Virus record (IMG/VR): IMGVR_UViG_3300028103_000018
Span: 1-61,387 of that record
DNA: 61,387 nt
Reading direction: 5' to 3' (one strand)
DNA from: a virus
Part shown: in pieces, positions 36,371 through 48,923 of the stretch
Layout of the letters: each line of letters begins with the position of its first letter
Position numbering within the stretch: the first letter of the stretch is position 1
Made by a program: the position numbers and the translations under genes
The notes under the pieces: generated by a model
What the model was told of the DNA's origin: nothing
Databases searched by the model: none
Seen by the model: the letters and a program-made list of their open reading frames with translations, nothing else

Positions 36371-36568
36371 TCAGTCCTCTTCGGCTTGTTGCACCAGTTT
36401 GTCCCAGATTTCCTGGAATTCCTGGCGTGCCTGCTGGAGTCCTGCGAGTTTGCCAACCATCATTTTGTATTCGGCGTAGTCACCGCACGAACCAGAGACG
36501 AGATGAGTGGCGTTTGTCTCTGAAAGCTCGTCAATCCTCTTGAAGAACCTAGATCGTAGGTCCAACAT
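36371..36568 (-). CDS. Small helical phage protein
   Basis: 65 residues, overlapping the portal stop by 20 nt. FKRIDELSETNATHLVSGSCGDYAEYKMMVGKLAGLQQAR has the SGSCxDYxEYKxxVGxxxGL pattern of a small conserved protein found after podovirus portals. Structural or assembly role unknown. Confidence 0.55.
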   Translation of the reverse strand: MLDLRSRFFKRIDELSETNATHLVSGSCGDYAEYKMMVGKLAGLQQARQEFQEIWDKLVQQAEED

Positions 36569-39122
36569 TGCCTCCCATGGAGTCCATCCTGGCTAAGATC
36601 TCCGCAATCTTGGCCTTTGCCATGTCGTTTTCGGTCTGAATCCGCTGCATTTCGGCCTGGATCCTGGCCTCAGACTCCTGGCGCTCCTTCTGGAGACGCT
36701 GAACGTCGAGTTGCAGCTTCTGATTCTCTAGCGCCAGTTCACTTTGGGTCTGCTGTGCGCGCTGTGCAGCGGCCTGCTGGGCAACCTGAGCCTGAGATTG
36801 AATCCTAGCGCTCTCCAATTGAGCCTTCGTCTGGTTCTTGACGATCTCAAGCTGGGCTTTCTGCTGCGATTCCTGCGCCTTCTGCTGCAACTCAGCCTGC
36901 TTGATCTGCAACTCAGCCTGCTGAAGCTGCATAACGGGGTCCTGAGCCTGCTGCTGGAACTGCTGTTGCTGCTGTTGAGCCTGCGCCTGCTGCAAGAGCA
37001 TCTGCGAAGCATCGGCAATAGCCTTGGAGAGATTGGATTCAATATCCCCAGGCATGGGTTCTCCCGGCGCGGGAAGCGGGATACCCAGCTTCTGCTCGAT
37101 CTGGGCGCGATATGCAAAGCCTACATGCTCTGCAATGTGCGCCATGAACGAAGCAAAGATAGCGTTTGCCTGAGGATTCTGTCCCAACTGCTGTTGGACG
37201 GAAGGATTCTGCACATACGCCATGTGCGCCTTGATGTGCGACTCGTGATCCTGCACCTGATAAGCCTTCGCAGGCTTCATGTTGGTGAGGTTCAGGTTCT
37301 CTGAGATTGGATCGAGGAGTGGGGCATCCATCTTCTCAGGGATAATCTTCTTCACATCCTTAACACCCAGGACTTCCAGCATCTTCCGATGCAACTCAGG
37401 CAGGTCGTAGAACTGCGGCGCTTGCGCGGCGAGTTGGATTGCAGCCTGATACTGCATCACCCGCTGCGACATCGTGGCCGCATTCGGATCAGAGACAGGG
37501 ATCACATCGATACGGTCGTCAAAGTCAGACCGCTTATCCCCATTCATCTTCCCGAAGTCAATCTTGTAGCGGCTGGAACCGCTGTCACGGATAACCCGAA
37601 CGAGAATAGCGAACTCGTCCTGGAGAGAAGCGTGAAGTCGAGCCTGAATGGCGCTCATGACCTTCAGCGCCCGCTCCATAATCGCCAGAGTTGTGCCTAC
37701 TGGCGCTTGCGAATTGACATCCCCAATCTCAGCGTCCGCGATAGAAGCGAGTCTGCGGCCATCCTCCACCACGTTTCCGAGGAGTTGGAACAGTGTCTGC
37801 GATGGCTCTTTATAAGGAAGAGGGTAAAGCGACCTCGCAATGTCCCCGTTAGCGACATCAACGTCTCTCCATTCACCCGGTTGGATCGGAGAATCGTCTC
37901 CGGCAACCCGCATCCCCTTTGCCTTCAGCCCGCCAGGAAGATTCGAGAGAGTGCCGGAATCAATCAACTGGCGCAGAATGGCAGTCGAAGCCTTCGCATT
38001 AGCGCCGATCAGATGGATCAACCCGTAGCCGTACGCCCCAATCCCAGGGACATAGTTGTAGGAGGAGAACCAGATCAGCTTGTTCTTCTTGGGATCTTCT
38101 TCGTCCCAGTTCTTGTAGACAGAAAGGACCTTGCCGGAAGACTTGTCTACAGTGACGACATAAGGTAATGCAATGCCAGTAGGGCTACCATCATCGTCAG
38201 TATGCTCCAGGCCAGGAATATCGAGATCGATATGAGCCTCAAGAAGAGTAACGGATTCCTCGTCGCCCTGCTTGTACTCGTAGCTAACCTTGTCAATCTT
38301 GTCCTGAAGCTGAGAGTTGGATTCGTAGTCAGGCTGGATGTCAACATCGCGATAGAACCCAGTGTACTGTAGCTTCTTGACTTCGTTGATGTTCTTTGTA
38401 AGGACATGGATATACCTGCTGGCCGTCTTGAGAGACGTAGCGCCATACGGCATAATGAAGTCCTGCGCCGGAACATACTTTACCTCAGGCATGTCCGTCA
38501 GGGGATCGAAACAGATCTTCTTGAAAGCAGACCCACACAGCGCCAGACCGAAGAGCATGCGCTCGGTCTCTGGGCGGTAGTCCTTCAACTCCTGGGTCAG
38601 CAGATAGTTGAGATCCGTCTGGATGCGCAGCGCCTGATCTTCCTTCTCGTCAGTGACCTCGCCAATGATCTGAGTCTTTACCGGGCCAGATGCCGGGAAG
38701 ATCTCCATGATGGCGTTGGACTGGAAGCGGACAGCCGCCTCCATGATCATGTTGTGGTACAGCCCACAAGCGCCAGCCCAAGGCTTGTTCCTGTCCTCGG
38801 TCTTTACCCCGAGGTAATCGAGGCCATCCTTATATGCACGCTCCCAGTCCTGCCGGGAGTTCAGGTCCTCTTGAAAGACATCCTGGATCTTGCGACCGAT
38901 AGAGGCAAGCTCAGAGTCGTCGATATGCTCTGCGAGGTTCGCGGAGTGGGGGAGGTCGCCCAGTGACTCTCCCCCTTCCTCCGGCGGTCCGAATTCGATG
39001 ATCATGCCACCGTCTTCGGTTTCGATAGACACAGCCTCTGGATTTAGAACACCGATTTCAATCTCGGCGCTCTCTTCAACTTCAGGACCGAAGTCCATTT
39101 CATCAAGAGGCTTGTCAATCAT
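36549..39122 (-). CDS. Portal protein
   Basis: 857 residues. The wing/stem region ELASIGRKIQDVFQEDLNSRQDWERAYKDGLDYLGVKTEDRNKPWAGACGLYHNMIMEAAVRFQSNAIMEIFPA and the later LIGANAKASTAILRQLIDSGTLSNLPGGLKAKGM are strongly conserved in P22/N4-like portals. The last 170 residues are a Gln-rich coiled coil (QAQAQQQQQQFQQQAQD) that may form the barrel inside the head. It forms the DNA gateway and docks the terminase. Confidence 0.85.
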   Translation of the reverse strand: MIDKPLDEMDFGPEVEESAEIEIGVLNPEAVSIETEDGGMIIEFGPPEEGGESLGDLPHSANLAEHIDDSELASIGRKIQDVFQEDLNSRQDWERAYKDGLDYLGVKTEDRNKPWAGACGLYHNMIMEAAVRFQSNAIMEIFPASGPVKTQIIGEVTDEKEDQALRIQTDLNYLLTQELKDYRPETERMLFGLALCGSAFKKICFDPLTDMPEVKYVPAQDFIMPYGATSLKTASRYIHVLTKNINEVKKLQYTGFYRDVDIQPDYESNSQLQDKIDKVSYEYKQGDEESVTLLEAHIDLDIPGLEHTDDDGSPTGIALPYVVTVDKSSGKVLSVYKNWDEEDPKKNKLIWFSSYNYVPGIGAYGYGLIHLIGANAKASTAILRQLIDSGTLSNLPGGLKAKGMRVAGDDSPIQPGEWRDVDVANGDIARSLYPLPYKEPSQTLFQLLGNVVEDGRRLASIADAEIGDVNSQAPVGTTLAIMERALKVMSAIQARLHASLQDEFAILVRVIRDSGSSRYKIDFGKMNGDKRSDFDDRIDVIPVSDPNAATMSQRVMQYQAAIQLAAQAPQFYDLPELHRKMLEVLGVKDVKKIIPEKMDAPLLDPISENLNLTNMKPAKAYQVQDHESHIKAHMAYVQNPSVQQQLGQNPQANAIFASFMAHIAEHVGFAYRAQIEQKLGIPLPAPGEPMPGDIESNLSKAIADASQMLLQQAQAQQQQQQFQQQAQDPVMQLQQAELQIKQAELQQKAQESQQKAQLEIVKNQTKAQLESARIQSQAQVAQQAAAQRAQQTQSELALENQKLQLDVQRLQKERQESEARIQAEMQRIQTENDMAKAKIAEILARMDSMGGNVGPTI

Positions 39123-39420: not shown

Positions 39421-41949
39421 TCAGTAGTAGTCTGCTTTCTTTCTCGAAATAGGCTCTTCATCTTCATCAGACTGCGTTGAGATAAAACCGCCCTGTCTAA
39501 ATCTCAACAGAGCCTGAGTAGAACTGTCAACAAGATCATCGTGGTCAGAGTTTGGAAAAGAAGCAAACTGCTCGATAACCTCTTCCGCCCATCGCAACGG
39601 AGGAGCATAGACAAAGCCAGAAGCAAATATGTCGCTTACGGCATTAACACGAGCAATCTTGTCATTCCCTCGTGATGGAGTGTAATCCTGTATCGGTATG
39701 CCCATGCGGCGCATTTCAAAGACAAGGGGAGCGCCAGCAGCTTTTGCTTCGATGATGCAAGAGTCTGGCTTCCAATACCTGTACTCCTCCAGTGCCTTCT
39801 GCTTCAACTCTGGGAACTCTAGCTTGTCCTGGAATGCGTTCAGCAGGATGATGTTCGTCCGCTTCTTCCCGTCAGAGTCGCTGTCGTAGAAGACGCCCCA
39901 GGTCGTGCAGGCAGAGTAGTCCGAGCGGGTTCCCTTGGTCAGCGCCGTGTCCCAGCTTTGGATGATGTATTCGCAGTTTGGCGGGTCGTCCCTGTCCCAG
40001 ATCTTCCACCAGTCCCTCTTTATAAGCGCACCTTCTTCTGAGGTGGGATTCTGCTGGTACTGGGCAGACCACTTTGAAACAGGAAGTTCGGCACGGATCT
40101 TGGAGAGTTCGTCCAGAGACCAGAATTCAGGCCAGAGCGGCTGGCCGGAGGGCATGATGGCCGGGAACTCGATGACTTCCCACTCGTCCACGCCATCTCT
40201 CTGCGCTGCTGCTTTCAATATTTGCCCACAGAGATCACGCTTGCTCCAGCGCGTCATGACGACCACGATGGCACCTCCAGGCTGAAGACGCTGCCTGGGG
40301 CCTGATGTGTACCACTCATACACACCATCGTAGATTGCTGGATTTGTTGCAGCCAGAGTAGCTTCCTGTTCGGAGTTGTGGGTAACGACATACCCCCTGC
40401 CAGCCAGGAAGAGTCCATCTGGCCTATTCACGGTGATGCACTGAACGTCTCCCCGCAGGTCGGTCTTCTCGATCTTATAGGACCTCTGCCTCTTGTCGGT
40501 TGGAGTCCTGGTTCTCTCTCTCTTTCGCGGGAGCCTACAGCACCCGAACAACTTGAAGTTGACCCTATAGACAGTGGACTCGCTATACCCCTTGGCTTCG
40601 TATTGCTTGACCGACGCCTTGACCCCAAGGCTATGCACGAGTTCCCTCAGGCCAGAAGAGAGGAGGCGGTTCGTGTTGTTGAAGGAACACTGCCCGTCGA
40701 TGGTCACATTGCCATCAGAATCCATCAACCCCTGAATCAAGGAGAGGCGCTGCTCAACGGAAGATGTGAAATATTCCTCTGGGATGTGCTTGTTGTTGAG
40801 AACCCCGATGTCCCTCAACTTCACCATCAGCTTTAGAGCGCCAAAGGAGTACGGGTCAGCGTGATCTGTAGTCTCATACCCCGCAAGTTCAAACTGAGAA
40901 CGGATGAACTGAATATCGATGGTGTCGGCGCTTATCCTGCCCAAACTGGAAGTGCCGTTGCCAAGCCAGTAGCCGAGGACGTATGGGTCAATCGGCAGGT
41001 CCTTGTGCGGGTATTGAACCTCGTGGTGCCGAGGAAGGCATGGCCTGTTTGGCTTCGACCATTCCGCAAGCTCCCTGGCTGTCGCGTTCTTGACCTTGGC
41101 CTTCTTGATATTCGTGTCGGACATGTAGGGCCAGAGATGCCCGCCATCACACATGATGGATTCCCCATCATCCGTCGTCAGGCGATAGAGTTCCCTGTCC
41201 TTCCAGACCTCAGACTTCGCCAGCACCTCAACCGGAAGACCGTCAGGGCCGTACACAAAGTCGCCAACACGAAGCTCCTCGACAGTCTTGAAGCCATTTG
41301 GTGTTGGTATGCATTCAGTGGTAAGGAGTGCATGAGGGTCATCAATAATTAAAAGGTCACTCCCTTTACCACTTACAGATCCCCCGACGCCAATGGCAAA
41401 GTACTCACCCTGCTTACTGGTGTTCCACCTTCCTGCTGCTTTGGAATCTGATGACAAGGCGACTCCAGGGAATACTGTTTGGTAATGACTGCTACCCACT
41501 AGATTCCTGACCTTTCTACCGAACCCAACGGCCAATTCGGCTGTGTGAGAGGTTTGGATGATCTTTCGATCAGGATACTTCCCCAAGTACCATGCAGGCA
41601 AAAGATATGAACTGAATTCGCTTTTTGAGTGACGAGGCGCCATGTTGATGATGAGACGCTTACATTTGCCTTCAGCCACCCTCTCGAATGCGTCTGCCAT
41701 GATCGCATGGTGCCGACCAGGAATGAACGCAGGCCACATCTCCTTGACGAAGTCTATGAACTTGGTCTGGCACGCCTGGACCTTCAACTGCTTCTCATAC
41801 GCTTCCAGCAGGCTCATCAACTCCACCTGCTCGTGGTACGGCAGCTTCTTCGCGTTCTGGATGATGGTGTCGATCTGCTGCGGAGTGTACTTCCCCGCAA
41901 GGACATTCCTTATATTCACACCACCATCATCTCCCACCCAGTGCCACAA
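39421..41949 (-). CDS. terL: Terminase large subunit, interrupted by an intein
   Basis: 842 codons. ATPase part: Walker A-like MAPRHSKSE (about residues 103-111) and Walker B DLLIIDDPH (198-206). Nuclease part: SWDTALTKGTRSDYSA, IIEAKAAGAPLVFEMR and NSDHDDLVDSSTQALLRF. Residues 207-525 are an intein; the mature enzyme would be about 523 residues, normal for the family. The frame opens at a TTG (41949); GTG 41919, with GGGAG 11 nt upstream, is an alternative start. It translocates DNA into the prohead and cuts concatemers. TerS lies 6.4 kb away, not adjacent. Confidence 0.92.
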   Translation of the reverse strand: MWHWVGDDGGVNIRNVLAGKYTPQQIDTIIQNAKKLPYHEQVELMSLLEAYEKQLKVQACQTKFIDFVKEMWPAFIPGRHHAIMADAFERVAEGKCKRLIINMAPRHSKSEFSSYLLPAWYLGKYPDRKIIQTSHTAELAVGFGRKVRNLVGSSHYQTVFPGVALSSDSKAAGRWNTSKQGEYFAIGVGGSVSGKGSDLLIIDDPHALLTTECIPTPNGFKTVEELRVGDFVYGPDGLPVEVLAKSEVWKDRELYRLTTDDGESIMCDGGHLWPYMSDTNIKKAKVKNATARELAEWSKPNRPCLPRHHEVQYPHKDLPIDPYVLGYWLGNGTSSLGRISADTIDIQFIRSQFELAGYETTDHADPYSFGALKLMVKLRDIGVLNNKHIPEEYFTSSVEQRLSLIQGLMDSDGNVTIDGQCSFNNTNRLLSSGLRELVHSLGVKASVKQYEAKGYSESTVYRVNFKLFGCCRLPRKRERTRTPTDKRQRSYKIEKTDLRGDVQCITVNRPDGLFLAGRGYVVTHNSEQEATLAATNPAIYDGVYEWYTSGPRQRLQPGGAIVVVMTRWSKRDLCGQILKAAAQRDGVDEWEVIEFPAIMPSGQPLWPEFWSLDELSKIRAELPVSKWSAQYQQNPTSEEGALIKRDWWKIWDRDDPPNCEYIIQSWDTALTKGTRSDYSACTTWGVFYDSDSDGKKRTNIILLNAFQDKLEFPELKQKALEEYRYWKPDSCIIEAKAAGAPLVFEMRRMGIPIQDYTPSRGNDKIARVNAVSDIFASGFVYAPPLRWAEEVIEQFASFPNSDHDDLVDSSTQALLRFRQGGFISTQSDEDEEPISRKKADYY
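40375..41331 (-). mobile_element. Intein with LAGLIDADG domain inside TerL
   Basis: 319 residues, inserted between His206 of the IDDPH motif and SEQEA. It starts ALLTTECIPTPNGFKTVEELRVGDFVYG (splicing block A, with Ala at position 1, not Cys/Ser), has CDGGHLWPY as block B, and ends GRGYVVTHN before Ser+1. The two endonuclease motifs are VLGYWLGNGTS and LIQGLMDSDGNV; the first has Asn where the catalytic Asp is usual, so cutting may be impaired. An Ala1 intein would use the Ser+1 or an internal nucleophile pathway (class 2 or 3 type). Confidence 0.9.
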
Positions 41950-42647: not shown

Positions 42648-42908
42648 TCAATACTCGATCTTGAAAGTCCTTCTGCCGTCCTTAAACCCCACATAGTTGG
42701 ACAGGAACGGCTTTCCTCCATTGAAGAGCTTGACGGTGTCAGCGAGGTGTTCCACCCACTCCTCTCCTTCCTTTACCTTCTGCTCTTCCCTGGCGATCTC
42801 TTCTGCCAGCGCCGAATCAATCTGAGTACTCGTCAGCTTGCCCATGCTCTTCGCCTTGCGCCGTAGAACTCTTTCGGCTTCTTGTTGAATCAGCTTGTCT
42901 CTTTCCAC
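42648..42908 (-). CDS. Small charged protein, unknown
   Basis: 86 residues from GTG 42908, chosen because AGAGGAG lies 5 nt upstream. Highly charged helices (ERDKLIQQEAERVLRRKAKSM; LAEEIAREEQKVKEGEEWVEHLADTV), then NGGKPFLSNYVGFKDGRRTFKIEY. It overlaps the previous gene by 92 nt. Function unknown. Confidence 0.5.
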   Translation of the reverse strand: MERDKLIQQEAERVLRRKAKSMGKLTSTQIDSALAEEIAREEQKVKEGEEWVEHLADTVKLFNGGKPFLSNYVGFKDGRRTFKIEY

Positions 42909-43209
42909 CTTTGCTCCTCTTTGTGATCTTCCATCCCCCAGGCGGCATGCCGTACATGTACTCGGCGCACATGACGAGGTGGTCTCCCCAAGGCGAGGCG
43001 CAAGTCTGTCGCATAGCGGCACGCCCTTCCTTCAGGAACAGTTCCCACTTCGTCGGCTCCTTGCGCATGATGATCTTGCGCTTGAGTTCTGGGAACTCCC
43101 CGATAATCTCAGCCGCATCCCGATAGGGATTAGCGCCGGAATACAGGTCCTCTTGGTTCGCAATGAACTCCGACAGGCTCAGGGAGTTCAGCCACTCCTG
43201 GTATAGCAT
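42817..43209 (-). CDS. Unknown protein, first gene of a leaderless operon
   Basis: 130 residues from ATG 43209 (GTG 43215 is possible). Patterns: MLYQEWLNSLSLSEFIANQEDLYSG, EIIGEFPELKRKIIMRK, PWGDHLVMCAEYMYGMPPGGW, then a basic low-complexity tail. No Shine-Dalgarno; a promoter (TTGCAC-17-TACACT) ends 6 nt before the ATG, so the mRNA should begin at or next to the start codon. Function unknown; it may be early or regulatory. Confidence 0.5.
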   Translation of the reverse strand: MLYQEWLNSLSLSEFIANQEDLYSGANPYRDAAEIIGEFPELKRKIIMRKEPTKWELFLKEGRAAMRQTCASPWGDHLVMCAEYMYGMPPGGWKITKRSKGGKRQADSTRSRKSSTAQGEEHGQADEYSD

Positions 43210-43237
43210 GAACACAGTGTACTACTGTGGTTCATGC
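43206..43237. promoter_or_regulatory. Operator-like inverted repeat over a leaderless promoter
   Basis: Arms GCATGAACACAGT and ACTGTGGTTCATGC (one extra base in one arm) around a 5-nt centre. The repeat covers the -10 (43216-43221) and the ATG of the - strand gene. The -35 TTGCAC is at 43239-43244. A dimeric repressor bound here would block transcription; alternatively the RNA could fold. Confidence 0.65.
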
Positions 43238-43238
43238 C

Positions 43239-43295
43239 GTGCAATAGGGGCTACTCGGAGGCGGATGAGATACCTCGGGGAAACCCCTATTGCAC
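43239..43295. repeat. 12-bp perfect inverted repeat in divergent promoter region
   Basis: GTGCAATAGGGG (43239-43250) and CCCCTATTGCAC (43284-43295) are exact reverse complements, 33 nt apart. The left arm contains the -35 of the - strand promoter. The repeat lies between that promoter and the + strand ncRNA promoter, so it is well placed to coordinate both. Confidence 0.65.
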
Positions 43296-43340
43296 AATGG
43301 TTACCCCAGTCAAGGGTGAGCCTTGATTGTATCATTTTTA

Positions 43341-43368
43341 TTGACCAGAATCCCAACGCTGGTAGAAT
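43341..43368 (+). promoter_or_regulatory. Promoter of the large ncRNA
   Basis: TTGACC (43341-43346), 16-bp spacer, TAGAAT (43363-43368). Near-consensus sigma-70 promoter. Expected start at about 43375. No convincing + strand protein gene follows for 800 nt. Confidence 0.7.
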
Positions 43369-43374
43369 GGAATT

Positions 43375-43895
43375 GAGAGTCTGCTCGAAACTGCGGCTTG
43401 CCGCTGAGAACAAAAGGCAAACTTTTCATGCCGGTTACAACCAGTCCCGGTGTTGGTGCGAGGGGTTGCGGTGAGAGATGAGACCGATCCGCGTAGTAAA
43501 CTCATCAGCCAGCTCGGTTCAGACGCCCCGCAGTGAATCTGGGTGAGCCAGTAAGGGGTCTAACGGTCCACCGAAAGGTGTCCCAGGCGCAAGAGTCTGG
43601 ATGAGGTTGCTACGGAGGCATGGCCCCGATAGATTGTCCCGCTTCGTGGACTTGAGATAAGGGCGCAGGTGAAACTCCAGATCCGTAGCCGAGAGGACAG
43701 GTTGGTGCCACACCAGATAAGGCACCTGTGAAGTAGCGACGGTGGCTCCATACCGGATAGCCTAGTTCACAACGAGAGGGAGGTTACCTCTCGTGTGTCC
43801 ACGCTCTGGTTCACCACCCGGATAGAGGGGTCGGGTTGGTGCTTGAGAAAAAGGGGGGTGGGTCCCCGGGAGGGGGGAAGTCCCCCTCCCGTTAT
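43375..43895 (+). ncRNA. Large structured non-coding RNA (about 520 nt)
   Basis: A strong promoter and a strong terminator bracket a stretch without a plausible gene but with many helices: GCGGC/GCCGC (43393/43400), GATGAG/CTCATC (43477/43501), GACGCCCC/GGGGTC (43522/43555) enclosing CTGG/CCAG, CACC-GAAA-GGTG (43569-43580), GCTACGGA/TCCGTAGC (43609/43682, long range), GGTGCC/GGCACC with extension (43704/43721), GGCT/AGCC (43744/43759), ACGAGAGG/CCTCTCGT (43772/43787), and CACCA-CCCG/CGGG-TGGTG (43812/43832). It recalls ornate phage RNAs such as GOLLD or ROOL in size and in lying near a tRNA. I cannot assign it to either. Confidence 0.65.
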
Positions 43896-43897
43896 TG
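43868..43897 (+). terminator. Terminator of the large ncRNA
   Basis: Perfect 9-bp stem GGGAGGGGG/CCCCCTCCC (43868-43876 and 43882-43890) with loop GAAGT, followed by GTTATTGT. Very stable stem; the U-tract is short and mixed. Confidence 0.65.
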
Positions 43898-43961
43898 TCG
43901 CGCTCATGATCAAGCAGTCCGGCCCTCGTCCCTGAGGGTCGAGACAAGCGCGACGAATAAC
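43891..43961. repeat. Long hairpin directly after the ncRNA terminator
   Basis: GTTATTGTCGCGCT (43891-43904) pairs with AGCGCGACGAATAAC (43947-43961), 14 bp with one bulge. An inner CCCTC/GAGGG pair (about 43923-43937) is present. It starts at the base after the terminator stem, so it may be a second RNA domain, a DNA cruciform or a protein-binding site. Confidence 0.6.
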
Positions 43962-44007
43962 CAAGCGGGAAAGAGGCAAGCTGAACCTCAAAGACCCTCA
44001 AAGAAAA

Positions 44008-44085
44008 AACACTGTACGGATGATCCGCGCTAACGGAAACCGGGCTACAGGATCACTCTCAATCAACACTGTACGGATGATCCGC
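44008..44085. repeat. Two direct repeats with palindromic core
   Basis: The same 21-nt sequence beginning AACACTGTACGG occurs at 44008-44028 and 44065-44085 (period 57). Each copy ends in the odd palindrome CGGATGATCCG. Related GCTAAC.../CTAACC and GCTAC words follow each copy. They lie 110-190 nt upstream of three HTH genes and look like iterated operators. Confidence 0.6.
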
Positions 44086-44195
44086 CCTGGCTCTAACCGT
44101 GCTACCGAATGCGAAAACCAAGTACATGCACTCGGGATCTAAGGCGAGTACCGTCCATTCTCCTAGATCAATACTTCTGGCGCTAAACTATACCT

Positions 44196-44474
44196 GTGCA
44201 AGAGACACAAGAGAAGAGAAAGCATCTCCTGCTAGACACAGAGGTTGCAGAGATCCTGGGCGCTTCTATATCCAGCGTGAGGAAGTGGAGACTCCAAGGG
44301 AGAGGGCCACGCTTTGTTCGTCTTGGTGGCGCTGTAAGGTACAGAGAATCCGATGTACTTGAGTATGTCGAATCTGGTAGACTGTATACTGAAACAGGCA
44401 TAGGCCGCACAAGGAGCAACCGTGGACACCTCGTTGAACAAAGACGCAATCGAGAGTCTTCTGAGAGAGAATGA
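44196..44474 (+). CDS. AlpA/excisionase-type HTH protein
   Basis: 92 residues from GTG 44196. LLLDTEVAEILGASISSVRKWRLQGRGPRFVRLGGAVRYRESDVLEYVES is a HTH_17 domain with complete wing. A candidate -10, TAAACT (44184-44189), ends 6 nt before the GTG, matching the leaderless pattern found at other operon heads in this window. The gene overlaps the next one by 53 nt. Confidence 0.75.
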   Translation: MQETQEKRKHLLLDTEVAEILGASISSVRKWRLQGRGPRFVRLGGAVRYRESDVLEYVESGRLYTETGIGRTRSNRGHLVEQRRNRESSERE

Positions 44475-44697
44475 AGTAGCCAAGATCCTAAACATATCTG
44501 TTGTAAAGGTCAGGCTACTCAGAAGGTTTGGTGGAGGTCCAGAGTTCATCAGGATCGGTAAGGCAGTACGCTACCGAAGGGATGACATCCGGCGCTTCAT
44601 CGACAGTGCCACCTCATTCGAGACCATCTCCGGCAAGGTTGCTCCCAAGCGTGAGCCTATTACCCTGAGCGAAATCTTCTCCAAGGAAAGCGAGTAA
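44422..44697 (+). CDS. AlpA/excisionase-type HTH protein
   Basis: 91 residues from GTG 44422. LLRENEVAKILNISVVKVRLLRRFGGGPEFIRIGKAVRYRRDDIRRFIDS is a second HTH_17 domain, clearly related to the previous one, followed by a polar tail (VAPKREPITLSEIFSKE). Likely a tandem duplication that diverged. Candidate phage repressor, activator or excisionase. Confidence 0.75.
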   Translation: MDTSLNKDAIESLLRENEVAKILNISVVKVRLLRRFGGGPEFIRIGKAVRYRRDDIRRFIDSATSFETISGKVAPKREPITLSEIFSKESE

Positions 44698-45032: not shown

Positions 45033-45108
45033 TGGCGCTCCCGGCAGGATTCAAACCTGCGACCTACTTCTTAGGAGGAAGTCGTTCTATTCGCTGAACT
45101 ACGGGAGC
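45033..45108 (-). tRNA. tRNA-Arg (anticodon CCU), CCA encoded
   Basis: 76 nt read on the - strand. Acceptor GCTCCCG/CGGGAGC, D stem GTTC/GAAC, anticodon stem ACTTC/GAAGT with loop CTCCTAA (anticodon CCT), T stem GCAGG/CCTGC with loop TTTGAAT, discriminator G and encoded CCA. All stems pair perfectly. It reads the AGG codon. It is the only tRNA I found. Confidence 0.95.
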
Positions 45109-48320: not shown

Positions 48321-48923
48321 CTACTCCCCCTCCCCGCCCCCGGTGGGGGTCTCCGTATCCCCCATATCGCTTGAGGGTAGCTGGGTGCATTCGGTGTCCA
48401 AAGTTGGACCGCTGGAGTCTTCAGCGCCTACGATAGGCGATGAAAGCCCTAGCAAAGATTGGAGTCTTGCCGCAAGGGTATCCACCATCGCGCCGGATAG
48501 CGCGGTATTCACCTCATTTGCTTGTGGCTCTTCGAACACGGAAGCATATCGCGTGCGACCAACCAGTTCTAAGGCTTTCAGTCGGGTGATGTCTGATTCA
48601 GTCTCACTGGCGGTTCGTGTCAATCCATCCATGACGAATGTTTGTAGCTTCTGTTTGTTCTCCCACCAGCGCGCAGTTCTCTCCGCCTCCATTGCATCCA
48701 TTGCTAGTTTGACGCTAGTCGCCTGCGAAGTCTTTACCGCGTTCGTTTGTAGCCCCTTCAAACTACTACCCTTGTAGTTGTAAGCCTGTCTGTAAGCCTC
48801 AGCTTTGCTCAACCCACCATAGACCAACCCCTCGGCAAACTTGCGCTGTTTAGGCGTCAACCGCGCCAATATCTCATTCACCTTCAATCGCTTACCGTCC
48901 GCATGTACTCTCGTTTGCGCCAT
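48321..48923 (-). CDS. terS: Terminase small subunit
   Basis: 200 residues. ARLTPKQRKFAEGLVYGGLSKAEAYRQAYNYKGSS...QTNAVKTSQATSVKLAMDAM is the N-terminal HTH of the Terminase_2 small subunit family. Central helices and an acidic disordered tail follow. It would recognise the packaging site and recruit TerL. It lies alone, 6.4 kb from terL and separated by unrelated operons. A candidate -10 TAGAAT ends 6 nt before ATG 48923, giving another leaderless start. Confidence 0.75.
   Translation of the reverse strand: MAQTRVHADGKRLKVNEILARLTPKQRKFAEGLVYGGLSKAEAYRQAYNYKGSSLKGLQTNAVKTSQATSVKLAMDAMEAERTARWWENKQKLQTFVMDGLTRTASETESDITRLKALELVGRTRYASVFEEPQANEVNTALSGAMVDTLAARLQSLLGLSSPIVGAEDSSGPTLDTECTQLPSSDMGDTETPTGGGEGE

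Follow-up and report, generated by a model that had tools for sequence, protein, structure and literature searches.

Examination of the window, a 61,387-base IMG/VR virus record whose sequence is called W below, indicated that the intergenic stretch at 43375-43895 (+) almost certainly specifies a real, conserved and structured non-coding RNA, to judge from comparison with homologous sequences. On the evidence of alignments and covariance models this RNA, termed RNA A, is an unlisted class of large phage RNA, and RNA B, which lies in the same genomic slot in related phages, is a second unlisted architecture. An earlier note on this DNA had proposed a large structured non-coding RNA, possibly of a new class, and strong covariation and the lack of a matching Rfam family both bear this out. 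Two unlisted architectures at one interchangeable genome position of a single lineage would constitute a natural experiment, in which the features common to A and B (position, HTH neighbour, perhaps timing) should point to function. The size of both RNAs is within reach of cryo-EM and probing.

The evidence for RNA A comes from six members, three of them near-identical, belonging to one lineage of uncultured tailed phages. Mapped on alignment A2 of these six sequences, a structure of 77 pairs in 14 helices has 96.9% of its cells paired and shows two-sided changes in 24 of the 77 pairs. Shuffles average 10.0 two-sided pairs, and sliding the structure by 1-3 columns gives 1-5. Permutation of whole columns of equal variability, a control that keeps the relatedness of the sequences, yielded 2.0 +/- 1.3 pairs, and never more than 7 in 2000 permutations of the six sequences, against 23 fully paired ones observed; the maximum was 8 when four representatives only were used. 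An unseeded exhaustive search, which considered every column pair and required at least 4 pairs and at least 2 two-sided changes per helix, recovered five helices, all already in the model: H10, H7, H3, H5 (43447-43450/43514-43517) and the CUUG hairpin at 43391-43406. The covariation on related phages that the note had called for is thus present, far beyond the controls. Since 32 cells are G-U and none A-C, the plus strand is the RNA. The folding energy of the region is uninformative (z = -1.56, with 5 of 100 shuffles as stable). That it barely beats shuffled sequence would suit an explanation by chance, namely GC-rich DNA that merely looks foldable, but the covariation statistics lie far outside every control and leave this explanation a negligible probability. 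A coding function for 43375-43895 was rejected as well: indels between homologues scramble any shared reading frame and mismatches are without codon periodicity, so that the region is non-coding, in agreement with the note's view that it holds no convincing gene.

The conserved structured core of RNA A spans approximately 43375-43820 (+), as delimited by alignment A2, pair counts and covariance models. The note's count of at least nine stems was right or low, as the 14 formally supported helices are joined by four (outer P1, H8, H8b and H9) that pair in each sequence of a hand alignment, as does a register-corrected H13. Near the 5' end, the hairpin CUGCGG-CUUG-CCGCUG (43391-43406) has two-sided changes in 3 of its 6 pairs. 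The 7-bp long-range helix H3 (43426-43432 with 43617-43623) is 100% paired and covaries at four of seven pairs; H4 (AACC/GGUU, 43439-43442 with 43605-43608), directly beside H10, is also 100% paired and covaries at one of four. A branched arm at 43447-43517, made of H5 (43447-43456 with 43509-43517) and H6 (43463-43471 with 43489-43503), is 100% paired where letters exist, its inner part being deleted in homologue L088. It is followed by an arm at 43518-43601 closed by the 7-bp H7 (43518-43524 with 43595-43601; 100% paired, five of seven pairs covarying). Within the latter arm lies the GNRA tetraloop hairpin that had been noticed previously, CACC-GAAA-GGUG at 43569-43580; its stem is paired in each sequence of the hand alignment, and the GAAA loop recurs in L017, while in L021 and L088 the stem keeps its position and the loop is not conserved. 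The 8-bp long-range helix of the note proved to be H10, GCUACGGA/UCCGUAGC (43609-43616 with 43682-43689), fully paired and with covariation at five of eight pairs. RNA A is pseudoknotted, because the covarying helices H10 and H3 cross; this is the one covarying pseudoknot found. One arm each of H4 (3'), H10 (5') and H3 (3') together make up an uninterrupted strand, 43605-43623. The 3' domain (43668-43820) pairs GGUGAA 43668-43673 with UUCACC 43810-43815, carries hairpins at 43704-43726 and 43777-43793, and includes the invariant segments GAGGACAGGUUGGU and GGUGGCUCCAUA.

The distribution of RNA A is narrow. A terminase search of IMG/VR provided 80 related loci, four of which (L021, L017, L011 and L016) hold RNA A in synteny, and a DNA pattern search added L088 as a fifth homologue; these five contigs are 65-70% identical to the window in DNA sequence. 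Four RNA A DNA-pattern scans of IMG/VR, checked with the models, and a scan for the HTH1 gene described below yielded, above the level of chance, no contigs other than these five. Covariance models R1 and R3 match RNA A in the six members only, R1 with 162 to 196 bits against at most 17.5 bits for everything else, and each phage record has a single copy. DNA searches of INPHARED phages with RNA A of W, L088 and L017 and with RNA B of L109 gave nothing relevant, and neither an HTH1 alignment nor the RNA pattern found any match among GTDB genome contigs. The closest cultured phages by portal protein (33-44% identity) include 023Pt_psg01, DSL-LC04, and Pelagibacter and Planktothrix phages. Neither RNA was found in the stretches around the portal and terminase genes of DSL-LC04 and 023Pt_psg01, nor in distant terminase relatives. 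Unannotated gaps of 500-700 nt do occur around the terminase genes of DSL-LC04/023Pt_psg01 (L120 1028-1672, 3016-3529 and 7116-7818; L121 3139-3776); they match neither RNA A, RNA B nor any Rfam family.

Comparison of the whole window with Rfam 15 identified a tRNA, a hammerhead of type II and nothing else, and cmscan of the window, the region and its relatives against 4227 families, at gathering thresholds and at E up to 10, gave no relevant match. The models named in the note (GOLLD, ROOL, OLE, HEARO, group I and group II introns) and that of the phi29-type pRNA were without a match at E up to 10, so RNA A is not a GOLLD, ROOL, OLE, HEARO or intron RNA. A Clostridiales-2 match was discarded (15 bits against a cut-off of 58.6, covering only the GC-rich terminal hairpin). 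A ribozyme, self-splicing element or decayed intron would account for the intricate pseudoknotted core and the invariant unpaired segments, and the same phage carries an intein and a hammerhead ribozyme elsewhere. However, the models of group I, group II and other ribozymes are all without a match, even with E up to 10, and RNA A is intergenic, interrupts no gene and has its own promoter sequence, which makes such an origin quite improbable. The hammerhead (RF02276, 50027-50093 (+)) scores just above the curated cut-off.

Among known large RNAs, GOLLD is a structured non-coding phage RNA of unknown function with a conserved and a less conserved region, ROOL is phage-encoded and pseudoknotted, with no coding potential and no known function, and both form cages; OLE is large and ornate as well and covaries extensively (PMC12286853). 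RNA A resembles GOLLD in being a large structured non-coding phage RNA with conserved and less conserved parts. It differs in its length of ~450 nt, against 800 nt or more, in the conservation of its 5' part and core and not of its 3' tail, whereas the 3' region of GOLLD is universally conserved, and in its lack of linkage to tRNA genes, near which GOLLD often lies. With ROOL, whose secondary structure has multiple pseudoknots where RNA A shows the one formed by H3 and H10, it shares a large, phage-encoded and non-coding nature, but it is shorter, confined to one uncultured phage lineage and without a conserved tRNA neighbourhood or a model match. The resemblance to GOLLD and ROOL drawn in the note therefore stands by analogy only: RNA A falls outside both because it fails their models, their size and their tRNA association. 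Proximity to a tRNA did not hold as context, since tRNA-Arg (CCT) at 45033-45108 (-), which adjoins thyX, is kept in two relatives with RNA B (L003 and L007) and is absent from L088 and the other RNA A contigs. OLE, a bacterial RNA and not a phage gene, is likewise large, ornate and covarying, but its model does not match RNA A. To our knowledge, only a few large ornate RNAs have been described from phages, none with an established function; GOLLD and ROOL, whose cages are homo-oligomeric, were recently found to build them from RNA alone. The put sites are short two-hairpin antitermination elements; like them RNA A is structured and upstream of phage genes, yet it is several times larger and pseudoknotted.

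RNA A is located between a leftward gene cluster and two rightward HTH_17 genes. The leftward cluster, of terminase and structural genes, begins with a small protein gene (42817-43215 (-)) divergent from RNA A, whose product had no match in Pfam or PHROG and is 64-93% identical in L088, L007 and L003; it continues with the large terminase subunit (39421-41949 (-)) and the portal (36549-39122). The window terminase gene contains a LAGLIDADG intein-like insert at W 40372-41332; L003, L007 and L088 have none, and L021 and L011 have inserts near the same residue. On the right are HTH1 (44196-44474 (+); PF12728, E=7e-11) and a second gene, HTH2 (44422-44697). The phi29 pRNA, of ~170 nt, is part of the phi29 packaging motor, which is another packaging system; RNA A is likewise a phage RNA near packaging genes, and it might similarly aid the terminase or DNA replication. 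The large terminase gene is indeed only ~1.4 kb away in a conserved arrangement, and HTH1 is weakly similar to a terminase small-subunit family. Against a role in packaging or genome handling, transcription of RNA A would lead away from the terminase, the window already encodes a classical terminase as well as a distinct candidate for the small subunit (48321-48923), and Rfam reveals no similarity to pRNA; we consider such a role improbable.

The ends of RNA A bear on whether it is a transcript of its own. The near-consensus promoter announced in the note was found at 43341-43368 (+), as an extended -10 sigma-70-type sequence (TTGACC-16-TAGAAT, the -10 box being preceded by TG) with a predicted start at ~43375. 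L088 has a full promoter, TTGACC-16-TACAAT, at the equivalent place, and TGnTAnAAT lies 5' of the RNA in all six homologues. The strong terminator of the note fared less well: the variable 3' tail (43821-43895), not conserved in sequence, ends with a GC-rich 11-bp hairpin at 43867-43891, a possible terminator, but its T tract is poor (TTATTGTC) and the hairpin is not conserved. Directly 3' of the core, the RNA strand of L088, L021 and L011 has no comparable terminator, and none is conserved between RNA A and the downstream genes.

This arrangement would also suit a long cis-acting 5' leader controlling the HTH1-HTH2 operon, such as an antitermination or ligand-sensing element. It is the main rival explanation because RNA A or RNA B always precedes HTH1, in the same direction, in the window and in all 15 other HTH1 contigs found, with no strong conserved terminator in between in the three contigs inspected. 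However, the distance to HTH1 varies from ~170 to 890 nt (roughly 320-890 nt across the RNA A homologues), two paralogous ORFs are interposed in L088, and the same cis role would have to be filled by two unrelated large RNAs. The phage leader elements known to us are also far smaller than RNA A. We regard a leader as unlikely, and a packaging or ribozyme role as less likely still. A discrete transcript is favoured over a leader because of the promoter, the variable spacing to HTH1 and the two ORFs of L088.

Ten of the other HTH1 contigs have no RNA A and carry instead, in the same slot, a different conserved sequence of ~300 nt, RNA B (L003:5005-5301(-), L007:2412-2708(-), L014:4671-4980(-), L018:2403-2712(-) and L098:9838-10139(+), among others), for which one IMG/VR DNA-pattern scan was also run. 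RNA B covaries in 21 of 66 pairs (97.0% paired), while slid versions of the structure give 1-3. Each of the 15 contigs has RNA A or RNA B and never both. Homology of the two RNAs was rejected, as their models do not cross-match. The flanks of the RNA B relatives are 80-90% identical. The alignment of W with L003 breaks off at 43282 and is taken up again at 44176, identity being 85-90% on either side; in L003, RNA B and a DUF559 endonuclease gene stand in place of all of window positions 43283-44175. On a terminase tree with some weakly supported inner nodes, the RNA B contigs L003 and L007 sit with W and apart from the other RNA B contigs, which implies that there has been at least one replacement. 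Since an unrelated folded RNA fills the same spot in close relatives, the slot itself seems important.

By analogy with GOLLD and ROOL, we tentatively propose, with somewhat less than even confidence, that RNA A is a separately transcribed RNA. It would be made as its own transcript from the promoter-like sequence just upstream and would act in trans during infection as a folded scaffold or assembly, in which the strand common to H4, H10 and H3 would hold the 5' and 3' domains in a fixed position relative to each other. The occupation of this slot by the unrelated RNA B in relatives points to a single role of the slot, which either RNA could serve. A bolder extension, which we hold to be doubtful, is that the slot is dedicated to a large folded RNA and that RNA A (~450 nt, with a pseudoknot) and RNA B (~300 nt) replaced each other as convergent RNA machines with the same job. 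If true, GOLLD and ROOL would have another functional counterpart in this slot.

Several minor features were observed around the slot. The endonuclease gene within the RNA B cassette of L003 (5436-5915(-)) is DUF559/Vsr-like, and its product might drive cassette exchange. A perfect 12-bp inverted repeat, GTGCAATAGGGG/CCCCTATTGCAC, is present at 43239-43295 of the window; in L003 and L007 the replaced cassette is bordered at one end by the left arm of this repeat and at the other by a copy, CCCCTATTG, as though the arms marked the boundaries of the cassette. Just 3' of RNA A, at 44008-44110, a 46-nt repeat occurs twice (80% alike, 57 nt apart). Finally, in L021 and L109-L117 the interval from the RNA to HTH1 harbors a short element (consensus RGCGTGGAAACYGTGGA) within a stem whose sequence differs while its pairing is kept (GATCGGTCA/TGACCGATC, GACTGGCTAA/TTAGCCAGTC, GTAACCCA/TGGGTTAC), which is possibly another small structured RNA.
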